A stretch of DNA of 55,957 nt from positions 1 through 55,957 of the IMG/VR virus record IMGVR_UViG_3300008954_000067; one strand, 5' to 3'. Below, piece after piece: positions 3,101 to 53,531 of this stretch. Below the pieces are notes generated by a model, which was given only the letters and a program-made list of their open reading frames with translations, ran no database searches and was not told the origin of the DNA. The position numbers and the translations under genes were made by a program. How positions within the stretch are numbered: position 1 is the stretch's first letter; each line of letters opens with the position of its first letter. The stretch comes from a virus.

Positions 3101-3712
3101 TTATTTCTCCCAATCCATAATATCATTAAAGATCCTATCGATTCTATCTGTTTTTGTAAAGTATTGATCTAAGTCTTTTCTACTAATCTCTCGGCCCTCT
3201 TTCATCATAAAGGCTCCAGGTGTAGAGGGCTCAGAAACAAAGTCCCAACAAATTAACTGAAAATCGTCTTGGACAACTTGGTAGTCCCCTTTTTGTGTTG
3301 TGGACCCCACGCCACGTGATGATATGCCTAAGGTTACCCCTGCCTCAACTAGATTTTGAAGAATCTTGCCGCAGGGTGTGTCGAGTAGCTCAACTGTGCC
3401 CTTACAGACGTCACCTTCCATCCATGCTTCCCTAATGATATGCGAAACATTCTTTAGTTCTACAACTGAGGAGTCTGGGTGGTCACATTCTCCCAAGGCC
3501 CGATTTTCCCTAATGAACTTCTGATAATTCCTAACCTCTCGTTCAAGAATAGGAAGAGGATAAATTCGGCCATTTTGATTAAGGGTCTCTGCCTTTTGCA
3601 AAATGCCCTTCATAACAATCTTACCATTGTTTTGTTCACGAGACTCTTTAATCATCTCTTTGTTATATTCAAAGGGTAACCATGAAGTAACTAGTTTCAA
3701 GTTATTTGCCAT
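3101..3712 (-). CDS. 21: Prohead core maturation protease, gp21-like
   Basis: A 203-residue protease that would cleave scaffold and head proteins during prohead maturation. Seen: an N-terminal segment with NGRIYP (about residues 47-52), a catalytic-His motif GECDHPD (His78), and a catalytic-Ser motif LGISSRGVG (Ser131 or Ser132), followed by a beta-rich C-terminal half. Known: this order of His then SSRG is typical of the T4 gp21/herpesvirus-assemblin-like fold of phage prohead proteases. Its length is close to T4 gp21 (about 212). Its ATG overlaps the stop of the upstream gene by one base (TAATG-type junction), and portal lies just beyond, matching T4 gene order portal, small proteins, protease. 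Confidence 0.9.
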   Translation of the reverse strand: MANNLKLVTSWLPFEYNKEMIKESREQNNGKIVMKGILQKAETLNQNGRIYPLPILEREVRNYQKFIRENRALGECDHPDSSVVELKNVSHIIREAWMEGDVCKGTVELLDTPCGKILQNLVEAGVTLGISSRGVGSTTQKGDYQVVQDDFQLICWDFVSEPSTPGAFMMKEGREISRKDLDQYFTKTDRIDRIFNDIMDWEK

Positions 3713-4560
3713 TATGAGTTCTCCAATAATTCTTGTTTTAATGCTGATACAAGCAGGAACTTAGAAATGACATCATCATTAATCTCATCTGGAGTCAAAC
3801 TATCAACGTTTTCACGAATTACATTCATCTTTTCATTGAGTATTTGGTTATCACATGCTAATGAGTATACCTTTAGTTCATCTAATGTTGATTCCCTAAT
3901 ATCGGATAAATAGTCGATTAATGATGTTGCATCTTTTTGCTCCAAAGCAAATACATACTCCTTTATAATCTCAGCCTGTTCATCATTTAGGGTATCATCA
4001 TATTTTTTATTGAATTTCTCCGTCATAATCCGAACAGTTAAAACATCAACATCATCATTTCTATGCACGTTGATATCCTCATCCTTCTTTTCTTGCAATA
4101 GCCACTTGCAGACCTTGTCCTCATAATTTGCCACCCGGCTAATATGGGCAGACCTATTATCCCGCCAATCGTTTAATAATGTTTGTATCGTTGCATATGA
4201 CCTATAGTCTTTTACGCGTTGAGCATAAAATGACTCATCATCAATGCGGTGGTTGATATCCTTTATTAGCTTAGCTTTTTCTTTTCTAAGCTCCGTTGAG
4301 TTAAAGTCTAAGGCTGCACTTTTTGCCTCACCTAAAATTCGGCCGGCAAGAACATCAGAGCTTACAGACGTTTTTACAAGGGCATTGAATAAACGAAATT
4401 CCCTATATAGTTCTGAACCTGGTTTAAAGTTATCAGTCAAAACCTGTGTAATTACCTGAGCCCTGTCTTCGTTTCCTTCTACGAGCGACTGCGATATACT
4501 TCGAAGAAGTTGCTCGTATATGATGCCGACATTCCTCTTTTTATTATGTGTCTTCGCCAT
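3712..4560 (-). CDS. Helical protein between portal and prohead protease
   Basis: A 282-residue, almost entirely helical and charged product. The N-terminus (HNKKRNVGIIYEQLLRSISQ) and the segment FRLFNALVKT look like ordered helices; the middle is rich in Lys, Asp and Arg and could form coiled coils. No membrane segment, Cys pair or catalytic motif is evident. The gene starts within the last 17 bases of the portal gene and ends overlapping the protease start, so it is tightly coupled to prohead genes. Known: T4 places small prohead core proteins gp67 and gp68 in this slot, but those are much shorter. I infer a prohead assembly role without claiming homology. Confidence 0.65.
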   Translation of the reverse strand: MAKTHNKKRNVGIIYEQLLRSISQSLVEGNEDRAQVITQVLTDNFKPGSELYREFRLFNALVKTSVSSDVLAGRILGEAKSAALDFNSTELRKEKAKLIKDINHRIDDESFYAQRVKDYRSYATIQTLLNDWRDNRSAHISRVANYEDKVCKWLLQEKKDEDINVHRNDDVDVLTVRIMTEKFNKKYDDTLNDEQAEIIKEYVFALEQKDATSLIDYLSDIRESTLDELKVYSLACDNQILNEKMNVIRENVDSLTPDEINDDVISKFLLVSALKQELLENS

Positions 4561-6628
4561 CGGTCGTTAACCCATCCTCTTCTGTTAAATCGATCTCGAG
4601 TTCCATATCTTCCTGCCCTAATCGTGACTCTGCTAGCAGTTCCTTACTAGAAATACCTATTGCGCTCCCCAGCTTACTTAAAGTAGTTTCCATCTCACGT
4701 GTCATCTTCGCATGCTCACCAATCTTATCATCCAGGTAATTGTCTAATGATGGTGTATAAGGAAGTAGATCACTTGCGTCGGTACCTTCTCTGAATGGGT
4801 CTCTTAATACGTTGCTCTTATCATATGGGTCATTTGAGGTATCTTGCTTTCTTCCTGATTTTCCCACACTGGTCATTTTTACAAAATCGGGTGCATTAAG
4901 TGAAGAAGGGCCGGAACGAACTGTCCGACTTTTCTTTATAGGTTCATTAAATGTATTCCTCATTTGCCTCTGGGCTTTTATTGGACTTTCTTCATCATCA
5001 ATTGATAACCTGGCAATGTCTATCTCGTCGTCTTCATCTTCATCTTCATCTTCATCCGACGGCAATGCAGTTAGTAGCTGGCCATCTACCATATCGGCCG
5101 CAAATAGATCTCCGCCTTCGTCTCCGCCTTCGTCACCACCAGCTTCTTCATCACCACCTCCGCCAAAGAGATCATCACCACCACCCTCACCACCGGCGGC
5201 GCCGGCGCCTGGTAGGGCCGCGGCCTGGTCTGGAGGTACGGCTGTTGCTTCTACCTTAAGGTCCATTACCTTATCATCAATAATACCCTCTAGAATGTGG
5301 CGGATATCATCATCTCTAAGTCCTAAGATATTTTTACGAATCCACTCTCTATCAACAATACCTTCCGGTGCGGTACCTGCAATCTCAAACTTCCTTGCAA
5401 TTAGCTCAAGTTTTTGCTGCTGGGCTATAGATGATGGGTTGGACAGTTTCAACTCGAAATCTAAAAGATCCTCGCCTTCAAACCCATGAGAGAATAGATG
5501 AATCATAGCTATTTTATTCAACTCAGATAATACAGTTTTTTGAATTCGCTGAATTGATCTTGAGAATCTAATATCTTCTTGGGCAAGTGTTGCCTTGGCA
5601 CCGACATCCTCATCATATCCCAGATATGCCCGTGGGATCTTTAATGCTGCAAATAGCTTCTTTTGGATATATTCAACATCCTGAACTGCTGCAGTATTTG
5701 AACCACCAGCAAGGGTTTCAATCTTTGTCCCCGATTCCCCCCCACGTACGGGAAGAAAATAATCTTCATCCACGCTCAGTGGATTATACCGTAGGTCGAC
5801 CTGGCCAGTTTCTTTATTTATGATTTGACTTCTTTTAAGAGACGTCTGAGCCTGTTGTAGATACTCTGCAACATTCTCAGGAGGAACATTACCAACATCG
5901 ATATAGAATACCCTTCGTTCTGGAGCACGAATGACCCTATATACCAACATGGCATCCTCAATAAGGATCAATTGTCTCCATATGCGTCTGGCAGACTCTA
6001 AAACAGAATTCCCATATGGTAGAAAGGCATCATTACCTAAAAGCCTAAAATGAGATACCTGCCAATTCTCCAAAACCTGGTTCCCTTGTGTTATCCATCG
6101 GAACCTTACAGCTGAGGGATCGTTTGGGTCAAATCCTTCTTCACGCTCAATCTCCGATATAGGGATTGGGTATGCATTTATCATGCCGAACTCTGGTGAA
6201 ACATCATTGAACAAGAAAAAATCACCATACTTGCATAGATTTCTCACCCACATAGGCAAATTGAATTCAATGTTCATCGTTTCTAGAAATAATGTGTCAA
6301 GAATTTCTTGAATCCGACGGTTCTCTGAGTATATGTGTAGGATATGTCCCTTTTCATCTGGGGACACCGTCTCCTCGGCATATATGTCTAAAGCAGATGC
6401 AATCTCAGGTGTAGCTTCCATTTCGCTAAAGTCACTATATCTGGACATTCTATCAAATGCCCCATAAGCAGACAATGTGCTATTATATACATCACTATGT
6501 TGCTTAGAGAACATATCCAGCGTAGACTGTGCGCCCTTTGTCTGGAAGTCACGAACCCTACGCTTAACCATTGGGCCGCCACGAAACAGTTGCGTTAATC
6601 GTTGAAATAGGTTTTTATTCTTTGCCAT
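4544..6628 (-). CDS. 20: Portal vertex protein, gp20-like
   Basis: The portal dodecamer forms the DNA channel and neck attachment at one head vertex. Seen: 694 residues with an N-terminal charged segment, the block ATPEIASALDIYAEETVSPD (about 73-92), MWVRNLCKYGDFFLF, APERRVFYIDVGNVPP and KLFAALKIPRAYLGYDEDV, all typical of T4-type portals. It is longer than T4 gp20 (about 524) because of a low-complexity tail: a Gly/Asp/Glu-rich stretch near residues 480-515, then a DEDEDEDDEID run near 530-542, and a further 150 polar residues. The tail is probably disordered. Gene neighbours are terminase upstream and protease downstream. An extended -10 element lies 33 bases before the ATG, whose ribosome site is AGAGGAT. 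Confidence 0.92.
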   Translation of the reverse strand: MAKNKNLFQRLTQLFRGGPMVKRRVRDFQTKGAQSTLDMFSKQHSDVYNSTLSAYGAFDRMSRYSDFSEMEATPEIASALDIYAEETVSPDEKGHILHIYSENRRIQEILDTLFLETMNIEFNLPMWVRNLCKYGDFFLFNDVSPEFGMINAYPIPISEIEREEGFDPNDPSAVRFRWITQGNQVLENWQVSHFRLLGNDAFLPYGNSVLESARRIWRQLILIEDAMLVYRVIRAPERRVFYIDVGNVPPENVAEYLQQAQTSLKRSQIINKETGQVDLRYNPLSVDEDYFLPVRGGESGTKIETLAGGSNTAAVQDVEYIQKKLFAALKIPRAYLGYDEDVGAKATLAQEDIRFSRSIQRIQKTVLSELNKIAMIHLFSHGFEGEDLLDFELKLSNPSSIAQQQKLELIARKFEIAGTAPEGIVDREWIRKNILGLRDDDIRHILEGIIDDKVMDLKVEATAVPPDQAAALPGAGAAGGEGGGDDLFGGGGDEEAGGDEGGDEGGDLFAADMVDGQLLTALPSDEDEDEDEDDEIDIARLSIDDEESPIKAQRQMRNTFNEPIKKSRTVRSGPSSLNAPDFVKMTSVGKSGRKQDTSNDPYDKSNVLRDPFREGTDASDLLPYTPSLDNYLDDKIGEHAKMTREMETTLSKLGSAIGISSKELLAESRLGQEDMELEIDLTEEDGLTTDGEDT

Positions 6629-6689: not shown

Positions 6690-8297
6690 TCACTTCAATA
6701 ACCATGACATATCTCCATAAGGAGAATTTGAGCCTGATACTTCAGGCATTGTTCCCATTACAATTGGTTGAAACGGATTTGGTGATGCACCACGATTAGT
6801 CCAAATATCTGCGGAGGACGGTGCTTTATTCTCAGGAGACCCATTAACTGCAAATGCAGCTAGCATCGCGTCATTAATATTTACCGTATACTGATTATAG
6901 TTGGGTGATGTATCATAAAGCCATGTCCCAATGGCAAGGGCGATGACGAGGTCATCATTTGCGCCTTTCTGGGCCTGGGCCTTATTGCCTTTCCACACAA
7001 ATGTCTTTAGCTCATCATATAGCCTCGTAGAGTATATCTTGATTTGCCTATTTCTTAGAATTTCTTCCAGCTTTGTCAGCACCTGTATTCTAGCTGGTGC
7101 CGTCATCGTGAAACCTACTTTGTGGATATTGCTTTCCCCATACATCGAAGCATATTTGTCACTTTGCTTCTTAAAATAAAGATTAGGATAATTCATTTCG
7201 ACCAGCTTCATAATGACCGCATACCCATATGTGTTATTCTCAGGACAAACTAGGGCCTTACCATACCTCATCCCAGCTTCATTGAGCAACATCGCAAATT
7301 GATCTGGGGGCAATTTACCTTTATATTCTGCAACTACCTCTGATTCATTTGTATCGATTACACAAAATGTTGAATAATCAGCAGCATCGCCCCTAGCAAC
7401 ATCGGCAGATATTATATACCTGTGCTCAGACAGCGCATACTTCCATACCCACACCCCCATATCTGGGCCCCATTTTTCTAATGGGTTCCTAACGGCCGTC
7501 CGAATATATTCAATATCCTCTGCCGCTAGAAATGTGTCACCTGATGCTGCAAAGTCACATAGTAGCTCTTGTGCAATTTGTTTGTTAGATAAGTTTTTAC
7601 ACTCATTCTCAAACCACGTTTCATCTCTCTCAGGATGTACATCCCATGGGAGACGAATGGGGTGAAACTCACTTTCCCCCGCAGCAGCCTTCATATACAA
7701 GTCATAATACTGGCCACCGACACCATTTGGGGTTGATAACACAATTGCACGACCACCGGTAGAGAGTGTAGGGTATAGGCCCATCCACAACTCATCAAAA
7801 TTACGAACAAATGCAGCCTCATCCACAATCAATAACGACAATGCCTCAGAGCGGCCGGCATCATCAGATGTAGGAATAGCCTTGATAGTTGAACCATTAC
7901 TAAACTCAACAGATTGCTTATTACTAGTAGTAAGCTCAGGCAATATCAGCCATGGAGGCACATTTCTTAACGCAACCTTCACTTTCTTTATAAAGTTCAT
8001 TGCAACTGCTAACTTCGTTGCAATTACCAGAATATTCTTATCCTTATAAAAAACAGCCAGCCATACAGCATACGCCGCACTAATTGTTGATAATCCAAGC
8101 TGCCGGGACTTCAAGATTACATTAAACCGATTGTTTATGAAATCATGAACACACTGATCCTGAAAATCGTATGTCTTGAATGGAATTAGGCCTGCGGTCG
8201 GATGTTGTATCTTTACATACTTGTTGAAAAAATAAACTGGATCCTTACCACAGCGGACTATTTCCTTTACCTGACGTTGCTTGTTAACAGGGGGCAT
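6690..8297 (-). CDS. 17: Large terminase subunit, gp17-like
   Basis: The packaging motor ATPase and nuclease that cuts concatemeric DNA and drives it through the portal. Seen in 535 residues: an adenine-binding region FKTYDFQDQ, a Walker A-type loop SRQLGLST (64-71), Walker B LLIVDEAAF with D159 and E160, coupling motif STPNG (188-192), and the RNase H-fold nuclease start IISADVARGDAADYS with D299. A further acidic nuclease residue probably lies in PENNTYG or NDDLVIAL near the C-terminal end. Length is somewhat below T4 gp17 (610). It is preceded by a small gene 10 bases upstream and followed directly by portal, with no sheath or tube genes between, unlike T4. Confidence 0.95.
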   Translation of the reverse strand: MPPVNKQRQVKEIVRCGKDPVYFFNKYVKIQHPTAGLIPFKTYDFQDQCVHDFINNRFNVILKSRQLGLSTISAAYAVWLAVFYKDKNILVIATKLAVAMNFIKKVKVALRNVPPWLILPELTTSNKQSVEFSNGSTIKAIPTSDDAGRSEALSLLIVDEAAFVRNFDELWMGLYPTLSTGGRAIVLSTPNGVGGQYYDLYMKAAAGESEFHPIRLPWDVHPERDETWFENECKNLSNKQIAQELLCDFAASGDTFLAAEDIEYIRTAVRNPLEKWGPDMGVWVWKYALSEHRYIISADVARGDAADYSTFCVIDTNESEVVAEYKGKLPPDQFAMLLNEAGMRYGKALVCPENNTYGYAVIMKLVEMNYPNLYFKKQSDKYASMYGESNIHKVGFTMTAPARIQVLTKLEEILRNRQIKIYSTRLYDELKTFVWKGNKAQAQKGANDDLVIALAIGTWLYDTSPNYNQYTVNINDAMLAAFAVNGSPENKAPSSADIWTNRGASPNPFQPIVMGTMPEVSGSNSPYGDMSWLLK

Positions 8298-8716: not shown

Positions 8717-9001
8717 CTATCTGACCCTATATGATGGTAGGCTCAGTCTTTTTTTTCTGACATTTGATATCTCTTTTGATGATGGACGCCAGCCACCTTC
8801 CCACTTATCCTGGTTTGCCGCGGCCCATGTTATATAGCAATAGTCACAGCATGACCATTTCTGAAATATTGTTACGTCTGTATGATCTCTCATTAAAAGT
8901 TCACATACAGGACATTCCAATGGAATATGCTGATCATGTATTAACCGGCTTGACTTCATTATTAAAAACCCGTTTTTATCTTCATGAAAATTCTTATTCA
9001 T
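8717..9001 (-). CDS. Small zinc-ribbon-like protein
   Basis: A 94-residue product with a CPVC knuckle (Cys30, Cys33) and a second cluster CCDYC (Cys51, Cys52, Cys55), a spacing expected of a four-Cys zinc ribbon. The rest is polar, ending in a basic tail (VRKKRLSLPSYRVR). Start choice: an in-frame ATG at 9022 has no ribosome site, whereas ATG at 9001 is preceded by GGGGAG ten bases upstream; it overlaps the end of the Mre11-Rad50 gene by eight bases. Zinc ribbons of this size bind nucleic acid or protein. Position suggests a partner of recombination or packaging, but nothing in the sequence decides that. Confidence 0.65.
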   Translation of the reverse strand: MNKNFHEDKNGFLIMKSSRLIHDQHIPLECPVCELLMRDHTDVTIFQKWSCCDYCYITWAAANQDKWEGGWRPSSKEISNVRKKRLSLPSYRVR

Positions 9002-12000
9002 GATCCATTGACTCCCCACCATTATAGATTACCTGGGCATTTTTTCCTCGCCTGGTTATCTCTATCACGTTATCGACGACGTCTTTTACACCATCAACAT
9101 GTGATATTACCAATATATTCCTAAACCATCTTTTAAGAGACTTCAGTAATCGATTACAGGATTCTACATTCATTTCATCAAGAGCGCCGAAACCTTCATC
9201 AATAATAAGCAAGTCGGTTTTGGGTAGGGACGAAATATTAATAAGTGCTACTCGAATTGCAAGGGAAGACATCATCTTCTCCATACCGGATCCACATTCA
9301 ATAATTCTTCTAGAGTCGCCATAATTGATATAAATGTCCATTGAATTTGAAGATGACTCAGCTTCAAGCTCTACAGTAAACCCAACAGCATCTTGAAGAA
9401 TCTTTGAAATTTCAGCATTAATAACTGGGAGTTGTGACATCATGATCTGGCGAGGAATGCCGTTCTTTGATACAGCACTCATAAATAGGTCATAAACCTT
9501 CCATTGCATTAGCAACTTATTGTGCTCATCTTTATCCACCTTCAGGCGCTCAATCTCTGAAGCCAATAGGCCAATGGATTCTGACAGTGACATTCTTTTT
9601 GCATCTTTTTCAAGTATTTGGTCAGACGTGCCAGATATTTCTTTCTTTACCTTGCTGACCCCACTGGCATCGTCTGAGTCTGATACTCGCATATACATGT
9701 CTGACAATACACTTTTTCCGCGGTCAATTGAGGATGATAATCTGGTCTTCGTTGATTGTAGTTCATGTAAATTAACTGACTCTGTTGAAGCATCAATACG
9801 CAGTTGTGATCCCTGCCTAAGTAGTGAATCATACTTTTCTACTTTCTCTTGTAGGTTTTCTTTTATTAAGATCTTTAATGCTTTTTTTGCCGTTTTAACT
9901 TGCTCTAATGTATCCGCCGTTCGCTCCTGTTGTTCAATAAGCAACTTTTTGTTTTTATGTGAGTCTTTTATAAATTTACATGTTGGAAATTGATCGCCAC
10001 ATGGAACTTCCTCTAGTAGTCCTACTGATTTCTTTTGGTTCTTAAGAAGCGTTTTCTCTTTTTCATGTGTATGCTCTAATCCAACCAAAGAACGTTCAAG
10101 GTCTGCCTGTGCAGCAAAGCGTTCTTTTAACTCCTCTATTGGAAACTGTTCTTTAATTGTTTGGATTTTTTCAATTTTTTCCTGCAATAGCCTAATTGCT
10201 TCGTTTGATACGCGCTCTTTCTCTTGGATATCATCTAGCTTGAGTTTTGCAGCCTCTATCTTTTCTTCTTGCTCCTCAACATCTGCGCGAGTGACGAGAT
10301 CCTTGTCTTTGTGTGTGGCTAGCGATATCTTTAACTCTTGAAGTCTTTTTCTTAGTTTTGTTAGTTCAACATCAACTTCATCCCTGGTTTTTACTTTTGC
10401 GTCATGCTCAACCTGGGTCTCTAAAATCTTAGTCTCATAATCGGTACCAGGATCAAGTTTTAATGTTGCCTTGATGCCGGCTGATTCATCTCTTGCTAAG
10501 CTTTCCATTTGATCGAATATGTTTAGGTCCAGAAAATTCGTTAGAATTGCTTTTCGTTGGGTTGCCTTATGTTTAATGAACGCATTCATTTCCCCCTGGC
10601 TTGAAAGTGATGTCAATAAAAAATCATCAGGTGATCCTACAAGTTTTCTAATATCCTTCTCTGTCTCTCTGCGCTGCTCGCCGCTTAAGTCTAATGTGGG
10701 TATACCATCATCACCCAACCTAAATAAGTTTAGGTGTGTAACCGCATGTAGCTTTCCAGCCTTTGTTTCATGTTTTACAGATTGACGTTCAATTCGGAAA
10801 CTTTTACCTGATACCCCTATATCGATATCTGCCCTACAGAAGCCTTTTCTAGAATTAATGACATGAAGATTCTTTATTGAACCTCTATCTGTCGTATTAA
10901 AGACACCATACATTAGTGCACCAGGGATTGATGATTTTCCGACCCTGTTCGGGCCGAAGAGACCGGTAATCCCACCAAGGTTTTCAAAATCAATAACATT
11001 TCCTTTGCCATATGAGAAAATGTTGTCAAACGCCAGCCTCTTAATTGACCACTTGACATTCCGCACAGTATCACCAGTCTCTAGCTGGCTTACATATCGT
11101 GTAGCCAGGCCATCGAGTTGTGTGAGCTCTTCCTCGGTTAGGAATACTTCCTTATAGTATTCACGTAGTAACTTACAATGTGTACTTGGGTCCCTTAAGT
11201 CATTCTTAAAAAATGAACTTCCGTTAGCTTTAATTACCGTAAGATCTGAGTCATAGTCATTCTTGTAAACGATCTCAGATGCTTCCTTAAATTCCTTTAA
11301 GGCTGTATGTAGTTGTTTTATCTCTGGTTGTGAAATTGGCTCTTGTGTACGTACTCTGAATCTTGCGCCGTCCGGATAATCTTCGGCAGCATCAAGTGTC
11401 GTTTGAACATCACCTGCCCAGTCGACTGTAACAAATGGTTTGTCATGAGGTATCTCATAAAAAGTACTAGTGAACTTATCTTTACTTTCTATCTCCCAAA
11501 ACAGGAACCCCTTACCTGGCGTCTCTCCGTAGTTCTGCTGAATAGATGAACCACAATATGCTATTCTCTTTTCATCATCCAGATATTGAAGCTTATGAAT
11601 ATCACCCAACATCGTAAAGTCATATCCATCAAAAAATGCAGTATCAACTTCACCATCAATATTCCAGTCGATGTCAGTTTTTGAACCCATAACACCACCA
11701 TGAAAAGTAGCAATGTTTATGTCACCAGGAACAGGTTTTACATCTGGCCAGCTCTCTTCATCAAAACAAGAAAATACAGACCAATTAAACCCAGGGTATC
11801 CTGTTGGATATGTTCCTGATTTTTTGTATAGATGGATATTTGAATTATTTAATGCGCTCAATATAGGGCTAATGGCATCTTGACGATGCTTGTTCATAAT
11901 CAGCCCATCGTGATTACCCAGGATAACATGGGTGGGTGCTATATCGGCAAGGCCTGTAAACCACCAATTCAAAAGATCAATTAGCTCAGGGGTAATCCCC

Positions 12001-12158
12001 TGGGTTTTTGAGTGAACAATATCCCCACCGACGTATATTACATCAGGGGCTAGCTCCTTTGCTTTTTCAAAGAATGCTGTAAATGATTTATAATATTCAT
12101 CATGACGACTAAGTCCCCTAAAATGAATGTCAGAAATGTGGATACACTTAAAACTCAT
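8994..12158 (-). CDS. Single-chain Mre11-Rad50 fusion (gp47-gp46 / SbcD-SbcC)
   Basis: Nuclease-ATPase that processes DNA ends for recombination-dependent replication. Residues 1 to about 380 are an Mre11/SbcD phosphoesterase: SDIH (Asp10, His12), GGDIVH (Asp46), GNHD (Asn82-Asp84), FHGG (His153) and GDIH (185-188). From about 385 follows a Rad50/SbcC ATPase: FSYGKGNVIDF, Walker A GPNRVGKSS (Lys408), long coiled coils, a hook pair Cys720 and Cys727, coils back, the signature region ECGSGMEKMMSSLAIRVAL, Walker B LLIIDEGFGALDE (Asp987, Glu988) and a final SH switch His. Known: in T4 and most bacteria these are two genes. Here no stop or start separates them, and both halves keep their catalytic residues. 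The hook is CX6C (PCGDQFPTC), not the usual CXXC. Flanked by primase and a zinc-ribbon gene. Confidence 0.93.
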   Translation of the reverse strand: MSFKCIHISDIHFRGLSRHDEYYKSFTAFFEKAKELAPDVIYVGGDIVHSKTQGITPELIDLLNWWFTGLADIAPTHVILGNHDGLIMNKHRQDAISPILSALNNSNIHLYKKSGTYPTGYPGFNWSVFSCFDEESWPDVKPVPGDINIATFHGGVMGSKTDIDWNIDGEVDTAFFDGYDFTMLGDIHKLQYLDDEKRIAYCGSSIQQNYGETPGKGFLFWEIESKDKFTSTFYEIPHDKPFVTVDWAGDVQTTLDAAEDYPDGARFRVRTQEPISQPEIKQLHTALKEFKEASEIVYKNDYDSDLTVIKANGSSFFKNDLRDPSTHCKLLREYYKEVFLTEEELTQLDGLATRYVSQLETGDTVRNVKWSIKRLAFDNIFSYGKGNVIDFENLGGITGLFGPNRVGKSSIPGALMYGVFNTTDRGSIKNLHVINSRKGFCRADIDIGVSGKSFRIERQSVKHETKAGKLHAVTHLNLFRLGDDGIPTLDLSGEQRRETEKDIRKLVGSPDDFLLTSLSSQGEMNAFIKHKATQRKAILTNFLDLNIFDQMESLARDESAGIKATLKLDPGTDYETKILETQVEHDAKVKTRDEVDVELTKLRKRLQELKISLATHKDKDLVTRADVEEQEEKIEAAKLKLDDIQEKERVSNEAIRLLQEKIEKIQTIKEQFPIEELKERFAAQADLERSLVGLEHTHEKEKTLLKNQKKSVGLLEEVPCGDQFPTCKFIKDSHKNKKLLIEQQERTADTLEQVKTAKKALKILIKENLQEKVEKYDSLLRQGSQLRIDASTESVNLHELQSTKTRLSSSIDRGKSVLSDMYMRVSDSDDASGVSKVKKEISGTSDQILEKDAKRMSLSESIGLLASEIERLKVDKDEHNKLLMQWKVYDLFMSAVSKNGIPRQIMMSQLPVINAEISKILQDAVGFTVELEAESSSNSMDIYINYGDSRRIIECGSGMEKMMSSLAIRVALINISSLPKTDLLIIDEGFGALDEMNVESCNRLLKSLKRWFRNILVISHVDGVKDVVDNVIEITRRGKNAQVIYNGGESMDHE

Positions 12159-12182: not shown

Positions 12183-13157
12183 CTAAAATAAGGAACCGCT
12201 TTTAATTGTGTCAATCAAATGTAACAAATGGTCATCTGACTTCCACTTCTTAGCTCGTTTTTTAGCCTCTAAAAAATCTAATCTTGACATCTCCCCTACA
12301 TCACTGAACGTACCATGGTCAAGGATACGTACATTGACTCCATAAGATGATAGCTTTTTAGCATATGCCTGTGTTTTACCACGAGCATCAGGATCTAATG
12401 CCAATACTATCGGTGTTGCATATTTGATAATCTCACCAAATAACGCATAATCCTCAGAAAAATGAGAACCCAACAAGCATGTTGCATTATCATCACATTT
12501 TACTAAATCAAAGGGGCCCTCGACCAATGTTAGTTCTTGTTTCCAATTGATGTTTATCTCATTGAAAATAACACTTTTCTTTGGCACCTTTGCATTCAAG
12601 TACTTCATACCAGCATCATTATCAATGGTCCTGGCAACAAAATAATTCAAATCACCGTCAGCATCAAAAGACGGTAAAATTACCCGCCGGCGATATCGGC
12701 CCTGCGTACATGTACCCATCTTAAAATACCAAAGATCCCTATTCGTTAGGCCTCTTTTTTTCAAATACCGAACAGTATCCCTAATATCTGGATCTTTACT
12801 TTGTAAGCTTGTAGCTAAAAGCCTAAACTCCTTAGGGCATGTTACTATAACCTCAGGTTCTTCAACATCAATTGCAAAATTCTTGGATTTTGTTAAGAAC
12901 TTCTCACGATATTCATGGACATACTGGGGAAAGTGTTTTCTCAAAAGAGAATTTAGGTTTCTTCCCTTGACGTCACAGACCCAACAGTGATGATTATCAG
13001 TATCAATTCGAATTACTAATTTCTTCTTTGCGGATGAACCATATGATCCACAGTTTCTATTGGGGCAACAGACGGCAACATTTAGGCCGTCGTTTCCAAT
13101 GACACAGGTTCCAAAAACCCGGTTCAAAAATCTGATTTTATCATTCGCAGAAGACAT
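12183..13157 (-). CDS. DnaG-type DNA primase with zinc finger and TOPRIM
   Basis: Primase that would lay RNA primers for lagging-strand synthesis. Seen in 324 residues: an N-terminal zinc-binding domain with Cys30 or Cys31, Cys36, His57/Cys58 and Cys61 (CCPNRNC and HHCWVC); a middle region with RGLTNRDLWYFKMG (about 135-148) as in the RNAP-like core; and a TOPRIM domain with LVEGPFD (Glu213) and LALDPDARG (Asp255, Asp257). Length is like T4 gp61 (342), shorter than bacterial DnaG because the helicase-binding C-terminal domain is missing. No helicase gene is in the window. No clear ribosome site precedes the ATG; the 64-bp leader holds a 12-mer shared with another spacer and two small inverted repeats. 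Confidence 0.87.
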   Translation of the reverse strand: MSSANDKIRFLNRVFGTCVIGNDGLNVAVCCPNRNCGSYGSSAKKKLVIRIDTDNHHCWVCDVKGRNLNSLLRKHFPQYVHEYREKFLTKSKNFAIDVEEPEVIVTCPKEFRLLATSLQSKDPDIRDTVRYLKKRGLTNRDLWYFKMGTCTQGRYRRRVILPSFDADGDLNYFVARTIDNDAGMKYLNAKVPKKSVIFNEININWKQELTLVEGPFDLVKCDDNATCLLGSHFSEDYALFGEIIKYATPIVLALDPDARGKTQAYAKKLSSYGVNVRILDHGTFSDVGEMSRLDFLEAKKRAKKWKSDDHLLHLIDTIKSGSLF

Positions 13158-13221: not shown

Positions 13222-13791
13222 TTATGAATCATGCAACATTAGGAATCCTGCTCTGGCAATAACATATGCATCTGCTGCATCATAACATCCAGGTTCTAAA
13301 ATTTCCTGGTTTTTTCTTGGGCCGCTCTTTAATATCTTGGTTGGCCATTGATATTGATTATCATTATCACTAACTTCACCAGAAACCCAGTCTAAAACTT
13401 GCTCTTTAGTGGGAGCGCCGCCTTTGCTTTTTCGGACGATCTTTAGTCCTACAGCTTTTCGTGCAGCATTGACATTGACATATTCTGGTTCAAAATCAAA
13501 TTGTTGGTACACTAAATAACTTACAATCCCATTAAACCTTGCCAATGTTAGTAACGTTTTTGCAGAGGATAGACCAGGCCGAAAGGCTTGTAGGTTCTCC
13601 TCAATGAAGACCTTGTTGATATCATACTTAAGGTGTAGCATAGCTAGTTTGTCTGAGGCCCCTTGGGCCTTCTGGAAGGGGCCATTCAGTTTAGACAGGG
13701 GAATATACCCCATCTCTGTAAGGCGTCCCTTAGGGCCTAATACACACCATCCAATACAAGCTGTTGAAACATCCAACCCTAAAAAATACAC
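13222..13791 (-). CDS. RuvC-like Holliday junction resolvase
   Basis: An RNase H-fold endonuclease, 189 residues, expected to cleave branched DNA before packaging, replacing the unrelated T4 endonuclease VII. Seen: MYFLGLDVST with the first catalytic Asp at 7, KVFIEEN with Glu64/Glu65 at the end of the fourth strand, NAARKAVGLK (108-117), and the C-terminal CYDAADAYVIA with Asp171 and Asp174. This is the D-E-D-D order of RuvC. RuvC of bacteria is about 173 residues. The start is GTG, overlapping the TAG stop of the upstream structural gene. A basic insertion near 119-124 (VRKSKGG) may bind DNA. It heads a small replication-recombination island. Confidence 0.87.
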   Translation of the reverse strand: MYFLGLDVSTACIGWCVLGPKGRLTEMGYIPLSKLNGPFQKAQGASDKLAMLHLKYDINKVFIEENLQAFRPGLSSAKTLLTLARFNGIVSYLVYQQFDFEPEYVNVNAARKAVGLKIVRKSKGGAPTKEQVLDWVSGEVSDNDNQYQWPTKILKSGPRKNQEILEPGCYDAADAYVIARAGFLMLHDS

Positions 13792-30639: not shown

Positions 30640-33600
30640 TTATTCCCCTATTAGTTCGGTAGATAGATTGAGCATTGATGGGTCAATTGGATCACGATTC
30701 CGAGGTACTCCATCATCAATAAATGGCATAGATGATGTGCAATAAGCATTAATATTTTGGGACCATGTTAGCTCAGGCTCCGTTGTTCCACCATCAGGAT
30801 CTAAGAACCTGCAAAGTACTGGTGAGGCTGATAATTGTGTCTTTTTATTCTCTTCACCAACCTTAAAATATCTTGTATCTTTGCGTTGTTCCATTAGATC
30901 CCTAAATTGACCGTAACGATCTGACCTGAATATCGAAGATGCATTTAACGGAAGGCCACTGATCAACCCATATTTCCAACCACGAATGTGGGGAACATAT
31001 CGCCAGGTACTGATTTGTGATAGCAGAGGCCCATGTCCCCACCCACGGCCGGCGCCGAAGTAAAACTTATAAGCATTACTTCTAACTTCCTCTGATTTTT
31101 CAAGGTATATGTTTCCGTCATTATCAGAAATAAACCCCTGAGCTCCGTAATACTGTGCATTGTATTCGGCTTCTGGCCAAGGATTAGGCATATCTTTTCC
31201 TGGCTCAAGTCCGTATCCAAAAATAGATCCCGTTACAAATAGTGTAGTAAATTTCTCCTCAACAGCGCTTGACCCGTATGTCCCCGCGGGGGCAATATCT
31301 TCGGTTAACTCAGCGGCATTAACCACTGACCATGTACTTTCATCACGGGTGAACAATTCTCGTTGCAGCCGACCATGGGCTCCCTCGAATGGGAAAGTAC
31401 TTAGCCACCCATCATCGATTGCAGGTGTGAGTTCTTTAGGATATGCATCGATACCTTGCTGTGTTACCTCAATCTTCCACTCAGCCTGAGGATTGTTGAC
31501 AGTATCGCCTCCGTCAGTATTGGGGCCGTCTCCGTTCTCACTGGCACCAGCACAACCAGGAGCTCCGCCAATTACTATATTTGAATTTGTGTCTTCTTGG
31601 CCTTCGACACCAGGAAAACTAGCATCTGGTGCTGAGCCATCTCTTGATGATGTTACTGTAAAGAACCCATCACCAGATTCATAATCTATAATAAACTGAG
31701 GGTATTCGGCTATCGCAGAGGCTGTTCTGGATGCAACTTCAGAACTATCAGCACCTATATTTACATCTTCTACTTTTATCAAAATACCAGATGGGTCTGA
31801 TGGTGCTACAGGAGGATACCCTATATCTCCACGGCCATCGATATCATACCACACATTATATGCAAGGTTTTCAGCATCATATATCGTAAACCAGCAACCC
31901 TCTATGCTAGTCTCTAACCCATCGGCCAGAGATGAATGATGATCAAGTGGTACGCTTTCAGGACCACATGTAATCTTGGTTACTTCTGGTACAATTGTCC
32001 CGCCGTCTGCTGGGCTTGGTTGCCCTACTACCATGTGGTACCCATATAGGCCGAGCAAGCTTTTTCCTCTACTCTGGTGATATGAAGGAAGGCTCGGTGT
32101 CATTGAGTCATAATATCGATCAGTTTCTGATGACATTTTCATATTTCTATAAAAGGAGCCTCGTTCTCCTGGGCCCGGCATAGGATTACCGGTCCATGGT
32201 AGTGAGCCACTTTGGGTAAATCTTGCCTGTACCTGGCGAGTTCGTTCATGATAAATTCTGCCCTGTACAAACTGATCACCTGGTTGCTCAACAATGACGT
32301 CGACTAACTCATCAAGAATAGTATTATCACTACCAGTTATTGCTAGTACTGTATGAGCAGCAATGTCAGTTATCTTTAGTTTCCCACCTTCTGCGTCGAA
32401 CCCTAGTCTTCTCCATGCAGGTATTTTAGATAAAGTTGTCCAACCAGCAGGTATACCTTCACCGGTCCACTCATCGGCTTGATCATCTATCCTTACCCTA
32501 GTTGAGGGATCTGACATTACTCTTTCTATTGCTAATGTCAATTCACCGGGTTCCAGTACCCTATCATCAAACATCGGTGATAACCACCATTGTACGGTAT
32601 CATAGTCCCATCGTTTGTCAACAACATATATTCCTCCGTCATATTTTTCATTAACGGTGCCACCGGTATCTGCGTATACGATGCCCCCCGTTGCACCAAG
32701 TGGATTACTACTAGCACCACCAGGATGATCCGGATCACTAACATATGACATATACTGGGTACCATGATCATTAAAGTAGAACCTGAACGTAAACTCTTCA
32801 TCAAATGGTTTTTCTTCTGTTGCACCTACATCATTATCACCCCAGTTAGCTTCTGGATCAATATTCGGAAAGACCTTGATGTCTACATAGCTGGCGCACT
32901 GGACTGGGGAACTGATTACGTCGAACGATGCATGGTTTGTTATCTTAGATGGATCCCTGCCACCGATAATTGCACCTGATATCGCAGAGACTTCTTCAAA
33001 TGATGTAAAGTTTAAGCCATTATTTGGCCAGCCGGGCTCACATTCTGATGTCTCATCATATGCAATAGACCACCCACCTGCTGTTATCTGGATATATTCC
33101 CAAGGTTCTGCTTCAAAAAGCTCACTGGCAAGAGGCAGCTTAACATCTGCTTGACCAGGATTATTGGGATCCCATGATGTGGGAACACTGTAACTGCCTA
33201 TATCGCATGCACCAATTGTTGTTTTGAATGCTATTGACCACTCTGATGATAGAAACACGATCGGCTTATTTGCATGGGCCCCGCCGTACCATGATTCGAA
33301 TACAACTGAGTTCTTTATACCAAATTCATCCTCTATAATCTTTACATCATAACAAAATACAGTGCTGGGGCGAGGGTTTGATGCTCCACTCCCAGAAACA
33401 CTACCTGATGTTGGAACACCCCAGTTATCACTAGGTGCAGGAGGCGACGCATCAGCATTGTCCGCGTCAACAATACTATAATGTGGAAAAATATCCGTAA
33501 TAGGCTCATTATATGGTATGCCACTACTCCAAATACTGGTGCTTGATAGTTTCCCCAACTCGCCGTTTGGGTCACCATCGGAGGTTATTCTCACACCGGC

Positions 33601-36600
33601 AAAATGAATATAATCACTATCCCATTCTGGAATGCCTCTGCAAGCAGTATTATTATAACTGATGACTGCATTATAGAGAGCTTGAGCCTGTCTCTCTGAG
33701 CTATATTTTACTAGTTTATTATTATCCCATTCATCTTTATCAATACACGCACCGATTGGAACAAATATATATTGGACGCCATTATCAGGGGATGCTAAGT
33801 AACGACCGGTAAATGGCATTGCATCTTGTGGACCGGGATTTGGTGAGGTCCATGCATATGGAACTGCCCATGTTGATGAATAAAACTGGTTTTCAGAACC
33901 TTCCCAATCATCATTATCCCAACTTGCCGCTGGGCTTTTACAGATCATTGAATCTGGTTCAATATAGTCATCTGTCAACACAATAATAAAGACACTATTT
34001 AGAGCACCATCACCAGGTTCTCCTGAACTACAAAAACTGTTTTCCGGAGCGGTACTTGGGTTTGGTATTAATAATATCGGCCAACCACCGGAGTCTTTTC
34101 CAAAACGAATCCTTCCAGTCTCCGTGGCACCGTTTGACCACCTGGTTGTTTCCTTAGTACAATTAAAATCATGAATTGACTTAATTGGCCGACAATACGC
34201 TCCAGTAGTATTCCAATCACCGTCTAGGCCGCCGGCGGCTGTTTCACCGGTAGTGGCCATTATCTGTGGAAGGCCGAGGCCGAACTCAGAATCTGTGGCA
34301 TCTTTTCCACCGGTGAACTTTATTGCAAATGTCGCAAAATCGCCTGTATATTGTGACTCTGACGGTTCACCACCATATGATCTTGGCCAGGAGCCATCAG
34401 AAAACCCGGCTGCGCCAGAAGTTGCACCAGGCCCTTCGGCACCAGAATGCCCTATATAATATCCTACAGATGCACTAGTATGTTCACCAGTCGGCCCAGG
34501 TGGATATATGCTCCCTATCTCATCCATCCTACTATAGTCTTCGCCACCTGTAACTCTAACTCTTGGGCCTGGCATTACTGCATCATAACGAATCTGAAAG
34601 TCACCTGTTCGATAGTTTACATTTCCGCCCCTGACTTTATTGCTACTTGATGCAATCTGACCAGGGTTATTTGGATTATTGGTAGCTGACATATCAAATT
34701 CGCCACCTGTGGTGAGATCTATGCCTGGGCTAAAGCCACATTCTGGTGAACCGGCGCCGCCTTCAGCTCGGATCCTTAACTCGTCCATGTATGCAATACT
34801 TGAATTTTCTGGAGACCCGGCAATAACTCGTTGGGCACTATGAACTGGGTTTAGCGGTAATACCCATGCACTGGCTCCCGGCTTATTAGAAAATAATCCT
34901 GTGGCCCCAGTTACTGACCCGTGATAAAATTCCCTATTTGAAGTGCTATCAAGAACTGCCTCTTTAATTTTCACGCCGAGAATAGCATGATGATCATAGG
35001 TGGGGCCATCGCCGGCGGTTTGTGCTAGTCGGATGTAATACGGGCTTCCTGGACTCGGGATTGCAATTGAAGAAACCCTAAAGGGATGGCCACCCTCTGG
35101 CTTCAGGAGTTGAAGTACATTAACTGTCTCCCAAACTGTAGAGCTATCACTAGGATTGCCCGTCGTTTGCTGAACCATTATTTCTTCGCCAATATCAGGC
35201 CTTTCCAGCTCAACACCGGTGAAGACACCGGAGGTCATAGAATTCAATTCCCACTTATTGGAACTAGACAGGCCTGAGGACCAATGGATCGTCATAGCTA
35301 TACTAGAGTTTAGTTCTTTAAGATATGTGAGATGTGCTGGGTCGGCTTCGGTGGGGTCACTTCGGCCAAGCTTTAGTATTGCTGTAGCACCTACAAACTC
35401 TGGATCAACTATATCAGCCGAGTAGCCTTGAGGGTGATCGGGGTAATCAGTATAATGTGTTTCAATTGTACTTTCATTATTTGTTATCCAGTCCGCAAAA
35501 ATACCAGCATCATTAGGGGTTCCAGGACCGATATGGGCCGTGGGATATCCTGTAGAAAACTTTAATACCAGGGATGGGTGTGATAATTCACCAACCCAAT
35601 CTTCTTCTGTCATCGTATTGGTACCAGAAGCACCTTTGATATGTGGCTCAATATAAAGACTGTTTCTTGTCTCCCTTGCATCAAAGCCCGAAACATTTTT
35701 GTATGGATTAAAGACCAACGTTGATGTTGACTTATATGGGCCGAACGAAAATATATCACCCCCGTATAATTCATCCCGCATCGTACCGGCCAAGTTCCCG
35801 ATCTCGTCAGTATCAAACTGATCTACTGTTGGATTATCATAATGCAGTGCCTCGTGTAGCGCGTCTGACGTCAGCGGTTGGTTCAACGGCTCATGGTACT
35901 CTTTATCGTCTCTTATAAGAGAACCATATAATGTCAGCTTAAATGGTATCGTATTTGTTGCAGATGCACCTGGGGCTAAGGTAAGGTGTGGACCTTGATA
36001 TGGAGAAATCCCATATTCATCTTGGTCGACTGTTCTTCTTGCCCAATAAGGCTGCATTGATTGACAACCTATTACTAGTTTGTCTCCAGGAAGTAAAATA
36101 TAAGGACTGTTCTCTCGGCCGGGCTCCATAAGTTGTAGAGTCGAGGAGTTAGTTGAGCCACCCCCGCCTCCGCCATAAGCATCGCCTGTCTCTTTTTCTG
36201 TCCCAATCGGAGCCGACCCAGGAACTGTAGAGTTTAGACCTCGTTGTGAACGAATACTGTCACTAATTCCTGACCTTGTTCCAGGATGGTCGGTCTTAAA
36301 AAAGATCTTGCCCATGGAGGTAACGGACGTGGCACCTGCATAGTCGTATGCATCTATAAGGTATGCAGAACCCTCAGAGTGTTTGATCGGCACTTTACAT
36401 GTGCCCTCCATTACAAAACTACCGGATGTTGCTATTGATACACCATCTGCACCTGTGTGTGGGTCTCCGTCTACCTTGGTACCTTCTACTGTTATTTCAC
36501 GCTCAAGACCTTCATCTAAAATCTTCTGTATGTCTTCATGGGCATCGTTAATGCCTTTATACGTTGTGACTTGTCCGTATGTTATTAGCTCACGAGAGGA

Positions 36601-39600
36601 GTTAACTGTAATAGTTGTAGGGAACCAAGCTGTCACACCACCACCTGATTCTGTTGTTCCCATGAGCTTTTCTGATGTAGAATCGTTTAGATTATTAGAG
36701 AATGGCGTTGCATTATCGGGCTCGCAACTAAGACCTGAAGCCCCTGTATATATCCCCTGTAGTTTTGTACAAATATAAATTTGATTATTACACCACCCCG
36801 GGGCGTTATCCTGATCACAGCTCTCTACTGATTGTGTTGTAAAGATTCCCTCTAATTTAGAATATGTGCTGAATGCGTTATTGACAAAGCCCTCTGCATT
36901 ATCTTCTTCACAATCATTCGGGTTTGTTGTTAGGCATACGTTGGTATCCCAACATACGCCTAGATCACCGTCATATATTGTAAATTGTACGATATCACCG
37001 GCTGTAGGGTACCCTGCTGGGGATGACCCATCGTCTGCCCAGACTGGTATAGTCTCAGCACCACCCGAGATATTATCCAGGTATCCGCAATACACCCGGG
37101 TACCATTATTTTGTATTTTGTATGCGCCTATTGTGTCTTGGCCATCTACTAAAGCACGAGTTCCGCCAGTTGCAGTGGGTACCTCTATAGAGTTAAAGAA
37201 GTGAAAGTGTTGTAGGGTTGTGTTATCCACCCCCCCGAATGTTGGGCCGATGCAAGAATTTCCGCCACACTGCTGTGATGAAGTATATGATCCATCACTT
37301 GTCATAATGCATACATTAGTGTCCCAGCATTTCCCAGCGATGCTATCATATATTGCAAATCTTGGAATTTCACCTTGAGTAAACCAGTCATCATGACCAT
37401 TACCACCATCATCACCCATGGTGACGATCATGTCATTTCCAAGGTTAAATGTGTCATATACTGAGGTGTACACCCGGGTTGTTGTGGTGAGTTGCTTATA
37501 GCTAGCGATAGCATCACCAAGGACTGGTGATCTATATTGTCCTGGATTTTGAATATCTGGTATCTCTATACCGTCAGGAAATAGATAAAAACATTGTTGT
37601 GAAGACTGATCCGGACTATTAAATGCTGGGCCATCACAAGAATAGCTTCCGTCGGGAGGTGCCCTACAAACATCTGTGTCCCAACAGGTGTTTAGTTGAG
37701 AATCATAAATAGTAAAATGAGGAATATCACCGGGCGAGAAAAAATTATTAGTTTCAGGAAGAAATTGAGAATCATAACCCATCGCAGGAATAGGATTGTT
37801 CATCATATTTCCGAAATCCCAAGCGTTACCTAGGGATGAGTTAGGAAAATATGATGTGTATACCCTTGTACCATCATTAAGCAGATTGTAACAACCAACA
37901 GTATCACCAGCTACTGGACTGCGGAATCCTCCATTACCATCTGGTATTTCGATTGCTGGAAAATAATAAAATGCCTGGTACATTGACTGTTCATAGTTGA
38001 ATTCTGGGTCACATAAAAAGCTATCGTCATCCGAATCTACCCATTTTGCAACACTGGGAAGGTATAACGTTTCTCCATCCTCCCAAGTGCTGGAACCGGC
38101 ATCATAAACTGTTGTTGACCAATTTAGCTCACCATGATAAGGACGTTGGTTCATTAAAAAGAAGCTTTGGATCATGGCCTTATTATTATAATTGCCCTGA
38201 TCGTTTTCTCTGCCAATGCCTGTATCATTATTACTATACATACAGGCGCGATTTCTCCACTCGCTTCCTTCTACAGCAGCTATATCAAGCTCTAATGTAA
38301 ACTTTTCTAAAACGAATGGATGCGTGATGTAATCAGATAATGCTATCGTTTGGCCGTCTTTGGCCTCAAACTTGGGATGCATGGGAAAACCAAAGTTATT
38401 GATGGGGCGACAAGACATTATCGATCCAGATTCAAGCATTTCAATGCCGCGGCTGAATCCTATACATGCATCATCAAAAAATGCTTGATGATATTCCCTC
38501 GGAGTACCATGGCCTGTCCCACCTACGTTTAGGCCTGGGCCCACTTTTTCCCATACGCGTGTATCACTATTGTAATATGCCATGTTATGAAAGAGATACC
38601 CAGGGTCACCTGTGGGTCCTGGAAGTATGGATTTATCATAGCCAATCGTTGTAGGGGCAACCACAGGCATATCAATTACAATCTGTGTCTTACTACGCAG
38701 TGGGCTTCCAAAGCCCTCTATCTCAGATGGTGATGATCCTTCGTCATAGAACTCGTTATCGTTATCTATATTGACTCGGTCATCTCTAAAGAAGCCAAGA
38801 TCTTCACCTGGTGTAAATGTTATCCCTACGTCAGCAACACCCCTCTGCGTTACAGCAGGAGCGACTAGATCAGAAGGTAGGTTCGGCGTTGCAATATTCT
38901 GCATCGTCCAACGAGCTAATGGATCATCTGGGCCATGGCCCTCATTGCCAGCATCATTATGACCGGCATATTGACCATGTAGAAGATTCGGATACCTGGC
39001 AACATAATCGCTACCACCTGAAAATGACCCGTTGATATACCTTCTTGGGCCGGTCGAGGGGGCATCAGAATTTGAAACTGTGATTAATGCACCAGTTTGC
39101 CTGGGTGGCCGATGCCGAAGATCTATTGTAATGGGATGACTAAATGAACCTGGTACCTGTTGCCGTAATGTTACTTTACCCTTGTTATATTTTGCAGAAA
39201 TGCATAGGCTGCTGTCATTAACAGCCTTTGTAAATACTGCAGCTACTTTTTCAGGGGCACGCTTTCTTCCGATGTTTACTTCAATATTTCCTGAAGTAAG
39301 TTTCGTACCTCTTTGAAACTCAAACGTCCCGGTTTGAGTCTGCCCTGAGCCATCTGTCGCATTTAATGTTATCGTTGCTTCATCTCTAATACGGCCGGGT
39401 AAGAATTCTATCTCAGCGGTATCATATGAGTCCCTAAATATAACCGTATTGGTGTCATTAAAGTTAATCGTGTGGGCCCCGGAGCGACCACCTGGATTAG
39501 TCCTTTGGATACTAGGATATGAACCTGTCGCCGCATCCCTGGCCCTGATAATGGTACGTGGTGGGTTGTTTAGGAAGCCTGACATTAGTTGACGGTATTT

Positions 39601-40467
39601 AGAAGAAATGCCCCCTGCATAAACATCTGATATATTTTCTTGGGTTAATACCCTGTCCCATATTGCTAGCTCTGTTATTGCATCATTATAGAAATCAGTA
39701 AGTGGAGTTCCTCCAGCATCAAGATCAAGGCCTACAGTGATCACATCAGTTGACTTAATCGACCATAGGTCTGAGAGTGGTGGGCTTGTGTCAACTAGTA
39801 TACCGTCGACGTACAATTTCCATACCTGGGATCCCTCATCGACGCCGGGATCAAAGATGGCAGGTGGGGTATATTCACATGTAGCAACTATATGATGAAA
39901 CTTGCCATCGTTATAGGTATCAGCTGCACTTCTTACAGCCACACTACTCCAGGGTGTAAAGTTCGTCACCAATACACGAATTTCATTATCATTGACGTAT
40001 ACCCAAGATCGGTTTGGTGTATAATCATCATCAATTATAGAAATGATGACTTCTGGATTACTAGCCGTATTATCAGATAACTTCGCCCAACATGATATAG
40101 AATAGCTGCTGTTGGTTATCCCTAATGCTCCTGCAGTGCCTAATTCAACATAATCACCCTCATATGCAGTATATTGGGTAAACTTCGCTGCATGTGATGT
40201 CTCACTTAAAAATGGAGGGGACCATGGTATAAATGATGGTGTTCCAGAGGTAGGGGTAACAAGGCTGTTGTTATAGGTGCCATGTCTGTTGTTACCAGAA
40301 CTATCTTTTGCTATCGAAACCCCAGGGACAACAGGGATATTCTCATTAAGACGCCAGTAACCTTTAAGGCCTTGGCTTGTATTATAAGGGTCACCGTATC
40401 CGAAGCTGCCAGGTGCAGCGGTGCCACCAACTATAAATACCCTAGATGTCTTTTTAACGACTGGCAT
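30640..40467 (-). CDS. Giant repeat-containing tail adhesin with LamG domain
   Basis: A 3275-residue protein, the largest gene here (9.8 kb without a stop). Residues about 34-285 are a LamG fold ([53 protein letters not shown]). Residues 833-1178 hold three copies of a roughly 101-residue unit ending CWDTxVC; residues 1186-1271 hold three copies of a 31-residue Cys-x2-DNA repeat. The rest is Gly/Asn/Ser/Pro-rich beta sequence with many aromatic residues and no membrane segment or enzyme motif that I recognise. Its ATG overlaps the upstream stop (TAATG). Known: proteins of this size and make-up in tail clusters are long fibres or adhesins. It should be the main host-contact protein. Confidence 0.85.
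36655..36912 (-). repeat. Three tandem 31-residue Cys/DNA-motif repeats in the giant adhesin
   Basis: Immediately after the longer repeats, residues 1186-1271 contain [28 protein letters not shown] and [14 protein letters not shown] at 31-residue intervals. The common frame is C-x2-DNA-x-x-(F/W)-x-NN, then KL-x-GI(F/Y)T in the first two copies and KLMGT in the third. The acidic start resembles a calcium-binding turn, but that is only a resemblance. Confidence 0.8.
36934..37971 (-). repeat. Three tandem ~101-residue protein repeats in the giant adhesin
   Basis: Coding repeats at residues about 833-934, 953-1053 and 1078-1178 of the adhesin. Each runs from an aromatic F-x-FP/F-x-FF start through IE(I/V)P, a GD-x-(I/V)-x-x-Y segment and TRVY, to a GDI(P/V)-x-F-x-IYD segment and a final CWDT(D/N)VC. 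Linkers of about 20 residues separate them. Two conserved Cys in the last motif suggest a disulfide or metal site in each unit. Divergence at DNA level means the repeats are old. Confidence 0.85.
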
Positions 40468-53216: not shown

Positions 53217-53531
53217 TTAAGTATCTTCATCCTTGAGCTCTTCGGGGCTATCAATCTTTGTTAGTGCACTAGCAACAGCTAAAATAGAAGAACGGGCATT
53301 ACGTACATCATCTAAAACACCTCGAATCTCTGGGCTATCATAGAATAATGGCCTATCCAAAATTGTAGATATGTTTGTATATGTTTCATCAAGTGTGTCT
53401 AAAGAATCTTCTAATGCCTCTTGAGTACGTAAAATAGCTAAGGCGAATTTAAGCGCAAAATAGGTTGGTACACCGACCAACACTAATACTGCACCTAATA
53501 TCATTAATAATGCTGTATTGCTTACTAACAA
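53217..53531 (-). CDS. Small single-pass membrane protein
   Basis: A 104-residue protein with one N-terminal transmembrane helix (TALLMILGAVLVLVGVPTYF, residues 6-25) followed by a charged helical domain containing DSLDTLDETYTNISTILD and RPLFYDSPEIRGVLDDVR. The start is TTG at 53531, overlapping the glycosyltransferase stop by seven bases; a GGGGGG run lies about nine bases upstream. An ATG at codon 10 lacks a ribosome site and would trim the membrane helix. It is not a recognisable holin or spanin: only one helix, no lipobox and no lysis neighbours. The topology predicts a cytoplasmic coiled-coil domain. Similar small proteins with a YxxPEI-type patch may exist in T4-like phages, but function is unknown. 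Confidence 0.6.
   Translation of the reverse strand: MLVSNTALLMILGAVLVLVGVPTYFALKFALAILRTQEALEDSLDTLDETYTNISTILDRPLFYDSPEIRGVLDDVRNARSSILAVASALTKIDSPEELKDEDT

Follow-up and report, generated by a model that had tools for sequence, protein, structure and literature searches.

Does one gene in this phage DNA encode both the Mre11 nuclease and the Rad50 ATPase, and if so, is the product made and kept as a single chain, what would it do, and is it new? The window, by which we mean the whole stretch of DNA analysed (a 56-kb fragment of 55,957 nucleotides), holds the gene in question at 8994..12158 on the minus strand. We consider it highly probable (about 0.85) that its product is an R555-like fusion, with the Mre11-Rad50 (SbcD-SbcC) nuclease and ATPase in a single chain, belonging to an aquatic T4-like tailed phage and acting in DNA-end processing for recombination-dependent replication.

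Domains, motifs and relatives of the fusion protein

The gene is an ATG-started, uninterrupted minus-strand frame encoding 1054 aa, in which a Mre11 phosphoesterase, a capping domain, a helix-loop-helix and an 8-residue linker are followed by a full Rad50, in the order head, coiled coil, hook, coiled coil and head. The proposal of an earlier note that Mre11 and Rad50 lie in one chain is borne out by this single frame. The parts of the gene and its neighbours, all on the minus strand, are as follows.

4544..6628, minus strand: T4-type portal protein (Pfam Portal_T4, 2e-76)
6690..8297, minus strand: T4-type terminase large subunit (Pfam Terminase_6N, PHROG 2)
8717..9022, minus strand: 101-aa protein (orf101) containing two CXXC pairs; its gene shares 29 bases with the end of the fusion gene
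8994..12158, minus strand: Mre11-Rad50 fusion gene, 1054 aa (ORF, Pfam, PHROG, NCBIfam, relatives)
8994..9470, minus strand: Rad50/SbcC C-terminal head, residues 897-1054 plus stop, with signature 957-961, Walker B 983-988 and D-loop 994 (PHROG, NCBIfam, PDB search, alignment, Foldseek)
9471..9968, minus strand: returning coiled coil, residues 731-896 (model)
9969..10007, minus strand: apex loop, residues 718-730, with C720 and C727 in a CX6C zinc-hook-like motif (model and relatives)
10008..10523, minus strand: outgoing coiled coil, residues 546-717 (long modelled helices)
10524..11054, minus strand: Rad50/SbcC N-terminal head, residues 369-545, with Walker A 402-409 and Q-loop 521 (PHROG, NCBIfam, alignment, model, Foldseek)
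11055..11078, minus strand: covalent Mre11/Rad50 linker, residues 361-368 (modelled coil between helix 342-360 and strand 369-378)
11079..11189, minus strand: probable Mre11 helix-loop-helix (Rad50-binding), residues 324-360 (modelled helices 324-334 and 342-360; identity taken from position)
11190..11252, minus strand: flexible stretch and likely hinge, residues 303-323 (pLDDT about 50 at 303-315)
11253..11438, minus strand: capping domain, residues 241-302 (modelled strand-helix-strand-helix-strand; 7dog spans nuclease and capping)
11439..12158, minus strand: Mre11/SbcD phosphoesterase (nuclease) domain, residues 1-240 (Pfam Metallophos, invariant metal site, Foldseek 7dog)
12183..13157, minus strand: DnaG-type primase (PHROG 47, 2e-40; Pfam DNAG_N), part of the conserved block
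13222..13791, minus strand: RuvC-like Holliday junction resolvase (PHROG 159, 3e-13), part of the conserved block

Both halves were recognised in database searches. Pfam Metallophos (calcineurin-like phosphoesterase) matched residues 4-174 (1e-10, above the cut-off), PHROG 77 (SbcC-like subunit) matched residues 366-1045 (8e-56), and a sequence search of the PDB led from the C-terminal head to Rad50/SbcC and from the N-terminus to SbcD/Mre11. The NCBIfam matches to sbcc (4e-24) and sbcd (5e-8) both lay far under their curated cut-offs, and those to Pfam SMC_N and SbcC Walker B were weak and also under theirs. An AlphaFold model made with 58 sequences (mean pLDDT 84.8) contains all the expected sub-domains in order, including the predicted capping domain, helix-loop-helix and short linker between the halves; its pTM of only 0.53 leaves the arrangement of the domains unfixed. 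Among solved structures, Foldseek returned SbcD 7dog (nuclease and capping, TMt 0.71) and 4lty, and the Rad50 heads 3tho, 5dny and 7yzo.

Of the 599 candidate stretches that a profile scan found in viral contigs, 577 were confirmed as relatives, and the best 80 were kept; a first scan had contributed 10 loci and genome contigs six. The whole fusion lies in a single frame in 88 of the 95 matching loci (the viral set being drawn from the best 80 of 577), from many samples and mostly at 29-79% identity; in two of the 88 (L001 and L011) the gene is that of the window. Five of the remaining seven stop at a contig edge (L002, L026, L067, L075 and L096), L098 has a 277-aa SbcD-like gene alone, and in L013 an insert interrupts the gene. 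The relatives include the fusion in the complete 190-kb genome of an isolated Microcystis phage, Mel-JY01, where it is annotated as 'AAA domain containing protein'; no paper on this phage was found in the literature searched. Further single-chain cases, which the earlier note had proposed looking for, were thus found in these loci, an isolate among them.

The insert in L013 (LR756508.1, a 484-kb uncultured phage) occupies 3656-4573 of that locus, some 0.9 kb just past the GDIH motif, and holds a 305-aa frame with a TnsA-like endonuclease domain; it is possibly a mobile intron or intein. A cellular origin of the fusion was considered and rejected, as the genome scan gave only the six loci, at least one of which (L093) is a phage contig that binning had put among bacterial ones. 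It was assigned to a Halobacteriovorax MAG and has the same length (108,871) as the viral contig L006.

The motifs of both enzymes were found where the earlier note had placed them, with D994 and H1020 lying just past its limit of residue 990. For Mre11 these are D10/H12, D46, N82-H83-D84, H153 and D186/H188, and for Rad50 N404/GKS407-409, Q521, S957-G-M-E-K, D987-E988, the D-loop D994 and the H-loop H1020. The phosphoesterase metal site is complete, with an aspartate (D186) for one histidine, and Walker A, Q-loop, signature, Walker B and D-loop are all present, the signature reading SGMEK rather than SGGE. Across the 88 sequences, D10, H12, D46, H49, N82, H83, D84, H153, D186 and H188 are invariant in the nuclease, as are K408, Q521, S957-K961, D987, E988 and D994 in the ATPase, and H1020 has one exception. 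Two substitutions are thereby universal (88/88), namely H49 (GDxxH, His for the third Asp) and D186 (Asp for Pfu His206), the latter of which could change metal use.

The coiled-coil apex of the window protein lacks the canonical CXXC zinc hook and has CX6C instead. By pattern, this spacing is found in 85 of the 88 sequences, with CXXC in two and neither in one. We rejected the hook as a unique trait, since a gut phage fusion also has CX6C and an unfused Moorella phage SbcC has CX7C; T4 gp46 has CPTC, and the fusions of Mel-JY01 and of the 484-kb and 735-kb phages have CXXC. Hook spacing therefore varies among phage members and is no bar to placing the window protein in the wider fusion class. 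It is doubtful, if conceivable, that the aquatic phage fusions are a sub-family with an altered apex, in which CX6C would coordinate metal inside a single chain or associate with a second protein, such as the neighbouring 101-aa protein with its two CXXC pairs, so that the tethering of two complexes would differ from that of the usual zinc hook.

Gene neighbourhood and probable role

We identified a conserved block around the fusion, in the order p858, RuvC, primase, fusion, orf101, orf121, terminase and portal. All eight genes are present in this order in 51 loci; in most other loci it is seen in part, in many cases on account of a short contig. The orf101 product lies near the fusion in 88 loci, with C37, C40, C59 and C62 all conserved, and had no match in Pfam or PHROGs. 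The prohead protease, like the terminase and portal, is T4-type. Elsewhere in the window, frames of 3275 aa (30640-40467) and 1237 aa (41521-45234) each hold a concanavalin-like lectin domain, and two adjacent glycosyltransferase genes lie at 53525-55944.

As the window is a fragment, and its genome may have a separate copy elsewhere, a separate pair was looked for in 14 long related records, themselves mostly fragments with one complete isolate genome. No separate Mre11 was found in these 14, the fusion being the only Metallophos match, and no separate full SbcC, the fusion being the only strong match beside a few short weak ones. A RecA-family gene is present in 14/14. The conserved block, the universal RecA and the lack of a separate pair in these records together fit a T4-style recombination-dependent replication, and DNA-end processing for this pathway, like that by T4 gp46/gp47, is the most likely function.

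By this reading, a dimer of two single chains would correspond to the usual 2:2 complex, and, as in the family, ATP would close both Rad50 heads on a DNA end. ATP hydrolysis would then let the Mre11 domains swing on the 303-323 hinge and cut, leaving a 3' single strand, which a phage recombinase of the RecA/UvsX type would take into strand invasion, and so into recombination-dependent replication and repair. The adjoining RuvC-like resolvase and primase would presumably serve the same pathway.

The earlier note had drawn two consequences from the fusion. Separate Mre11 and Rad50 proteins already assemble 2:2, so a 1:1 stoichiometry represents no change. Nor did we find support for a constraint on the conformational cycle: the join at 361-368 runs from the Mre11 helix-loop-helix into the first part of Rad50, and these elements stay joined in known complexes, and a covalent join between parts already held together would not be expected to constrain the cycle. 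The apparent hinge lies elsewhere and is kept, the low-confidence stretch 303-315 of the model (pLDDT about 50) looking like the pivot for a nuclease swing.

A different main job, the degradation of host DNA or an attack on DNA structures of host defence, would agree with the annotation of T4 gp46/gp47 as required both to break down host DNA and to recombine. However, the position of the gene beside primase and RuvC, and a RecA in all 14 long records, favour replication and recombination, and we regard the host-directed job as unlikely to be the principal one; the two roles are mutually compatible.

Integrity of the single chain

A rival reading is that a protease usually cleaves the chain after it is made as one, or that translation from an internal start yields a separate Rad50 half. 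The flexible stretch 303-315 could serve as a cleavage site, but a cut there would presumably part the nuclease from its own Rad50-binding helices. The earlier note had named reads with a stop or an internal start between residues 370 and 400 as evidence against a single chain. The frame of the window gene is open, and no ATG falls in frame between codons 183 and 416. Codons 301-376 contain a single GTG (codon 365) with no clear ribosome-binding site, which makes a separately started Rad50 half unlikely. Among the 88 relatives, no internal start is conserved, an ATG anywhere in 336-372 occurring in only 27, at varying positions. We therefore rejected the internal start, and consider a split chain of either kind very improbable.

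Comparison with five relatives showed synonymous differences that were saturated or nearly so, with fewer protein-changing differences in every part, much fewer in most, and clearly fewer at the junction. This constraint on the protein, junction included, indicates that the frame is translated through. An assembly or sequencing error, in which a lost stop codon joined two adjacent genes, could arise in a metagenomic contig, and T4 and SPO1-like phages do keep the two genes separate and near each other, but the same frame in 88/95 loci from many samples and in Mel-JY01, with constraint kept across the junction, refutes it through independent copies and reduces its probability to almost nil.

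Comparison with known fusions and separate systems

The implied novelty of the fusion does not hold, as Mre11/Rad50 fusions were described in 2011 in Mimivirus (R555), a Bacillus phage, plasmids and eukaryotes (Yoshida, Claverie and Ogata, PMC3175470), and many abundant environmental homologues of R555 were then suspected to be phage-borne (PMC3175470). The window fusion illustrates a known kind well, being common in aquatic phages, and is not a discovery. Long contigs now show what the 2011 study suspected from short reads, that T4-type tailed phages carry many of the fusions seen in aquatic viromes; in these phages, no Mre11-Rad50 other than the fusion was found, and the gene lies in a fixed block that includes primase and RuvC. 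For structural work, a 1054-aa single-chain complex whose coiled coil is short would also be convenient.

Other phage single-chain fusions are those of Mel-JY01, the uncultured 484-kb and 735-kb phages, the Tenacibaculum jumbo phages pT24/PTm1 (fusions by predicted structure, ranks 9 and 12 in Foldseek) and the gut fragment MT837445. In a tree of Rad50 heads, 19 fusions lie on one side of the marked branch (100/99), and six unfused phage proteins with MT837445 on the other. A single origin of all fusions was rejected, since the tree, which has some long branches, needs two changes; the fusion in MT837445 is likely an independent one. That human gut phage fragment (L106, 2-3469) encodes an SbcD-SbcC fusion with its start cut off and a CX6C apex, and branches with an unfused phage SbcC. 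For the plasmid fusions we found no close relative; Euzebya pacifica has SbcD and SMC-family genes side by side.

Bacterial SbcCD shares the domain order within each half and the catalytic motifs, but its genes are separate as a rule, as the earlier note had held, and the window protein falls far under the curated cut-offs. T4 gp47/gp46 are the same two enzymes, in a phage with the same type of terminase and portal and likely in the same role. In contrast to the window fusion, they are encoded, again as had been claimed, by separate genes, whose products have 339 and 560 aa and which are spaced by two small genes, and gp46 has a canonical hook.

R555 provides a close likeness, drawn from its published features and from predicted structures of giant-virus relatives: a Mre11-then-Rad50 chain, with capping domain and helix-loop-helix kept, both active-site substitutions, and a short linker, of 8 residues in the window fusion against the 9-12 estimated for fusions of this class (PMC3175470). 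On the phage side, no separate pair was found in the 14 long related records. Full-length giant-virus fusions were the best Foldseek matches among predicted viral structures (Tupanvirus, E 8e-59). The two differ in the kind of virus, phage versus giant virus, and in length, 1054 aa versus 1351 aa; the hook of the window fusion is CX6C.
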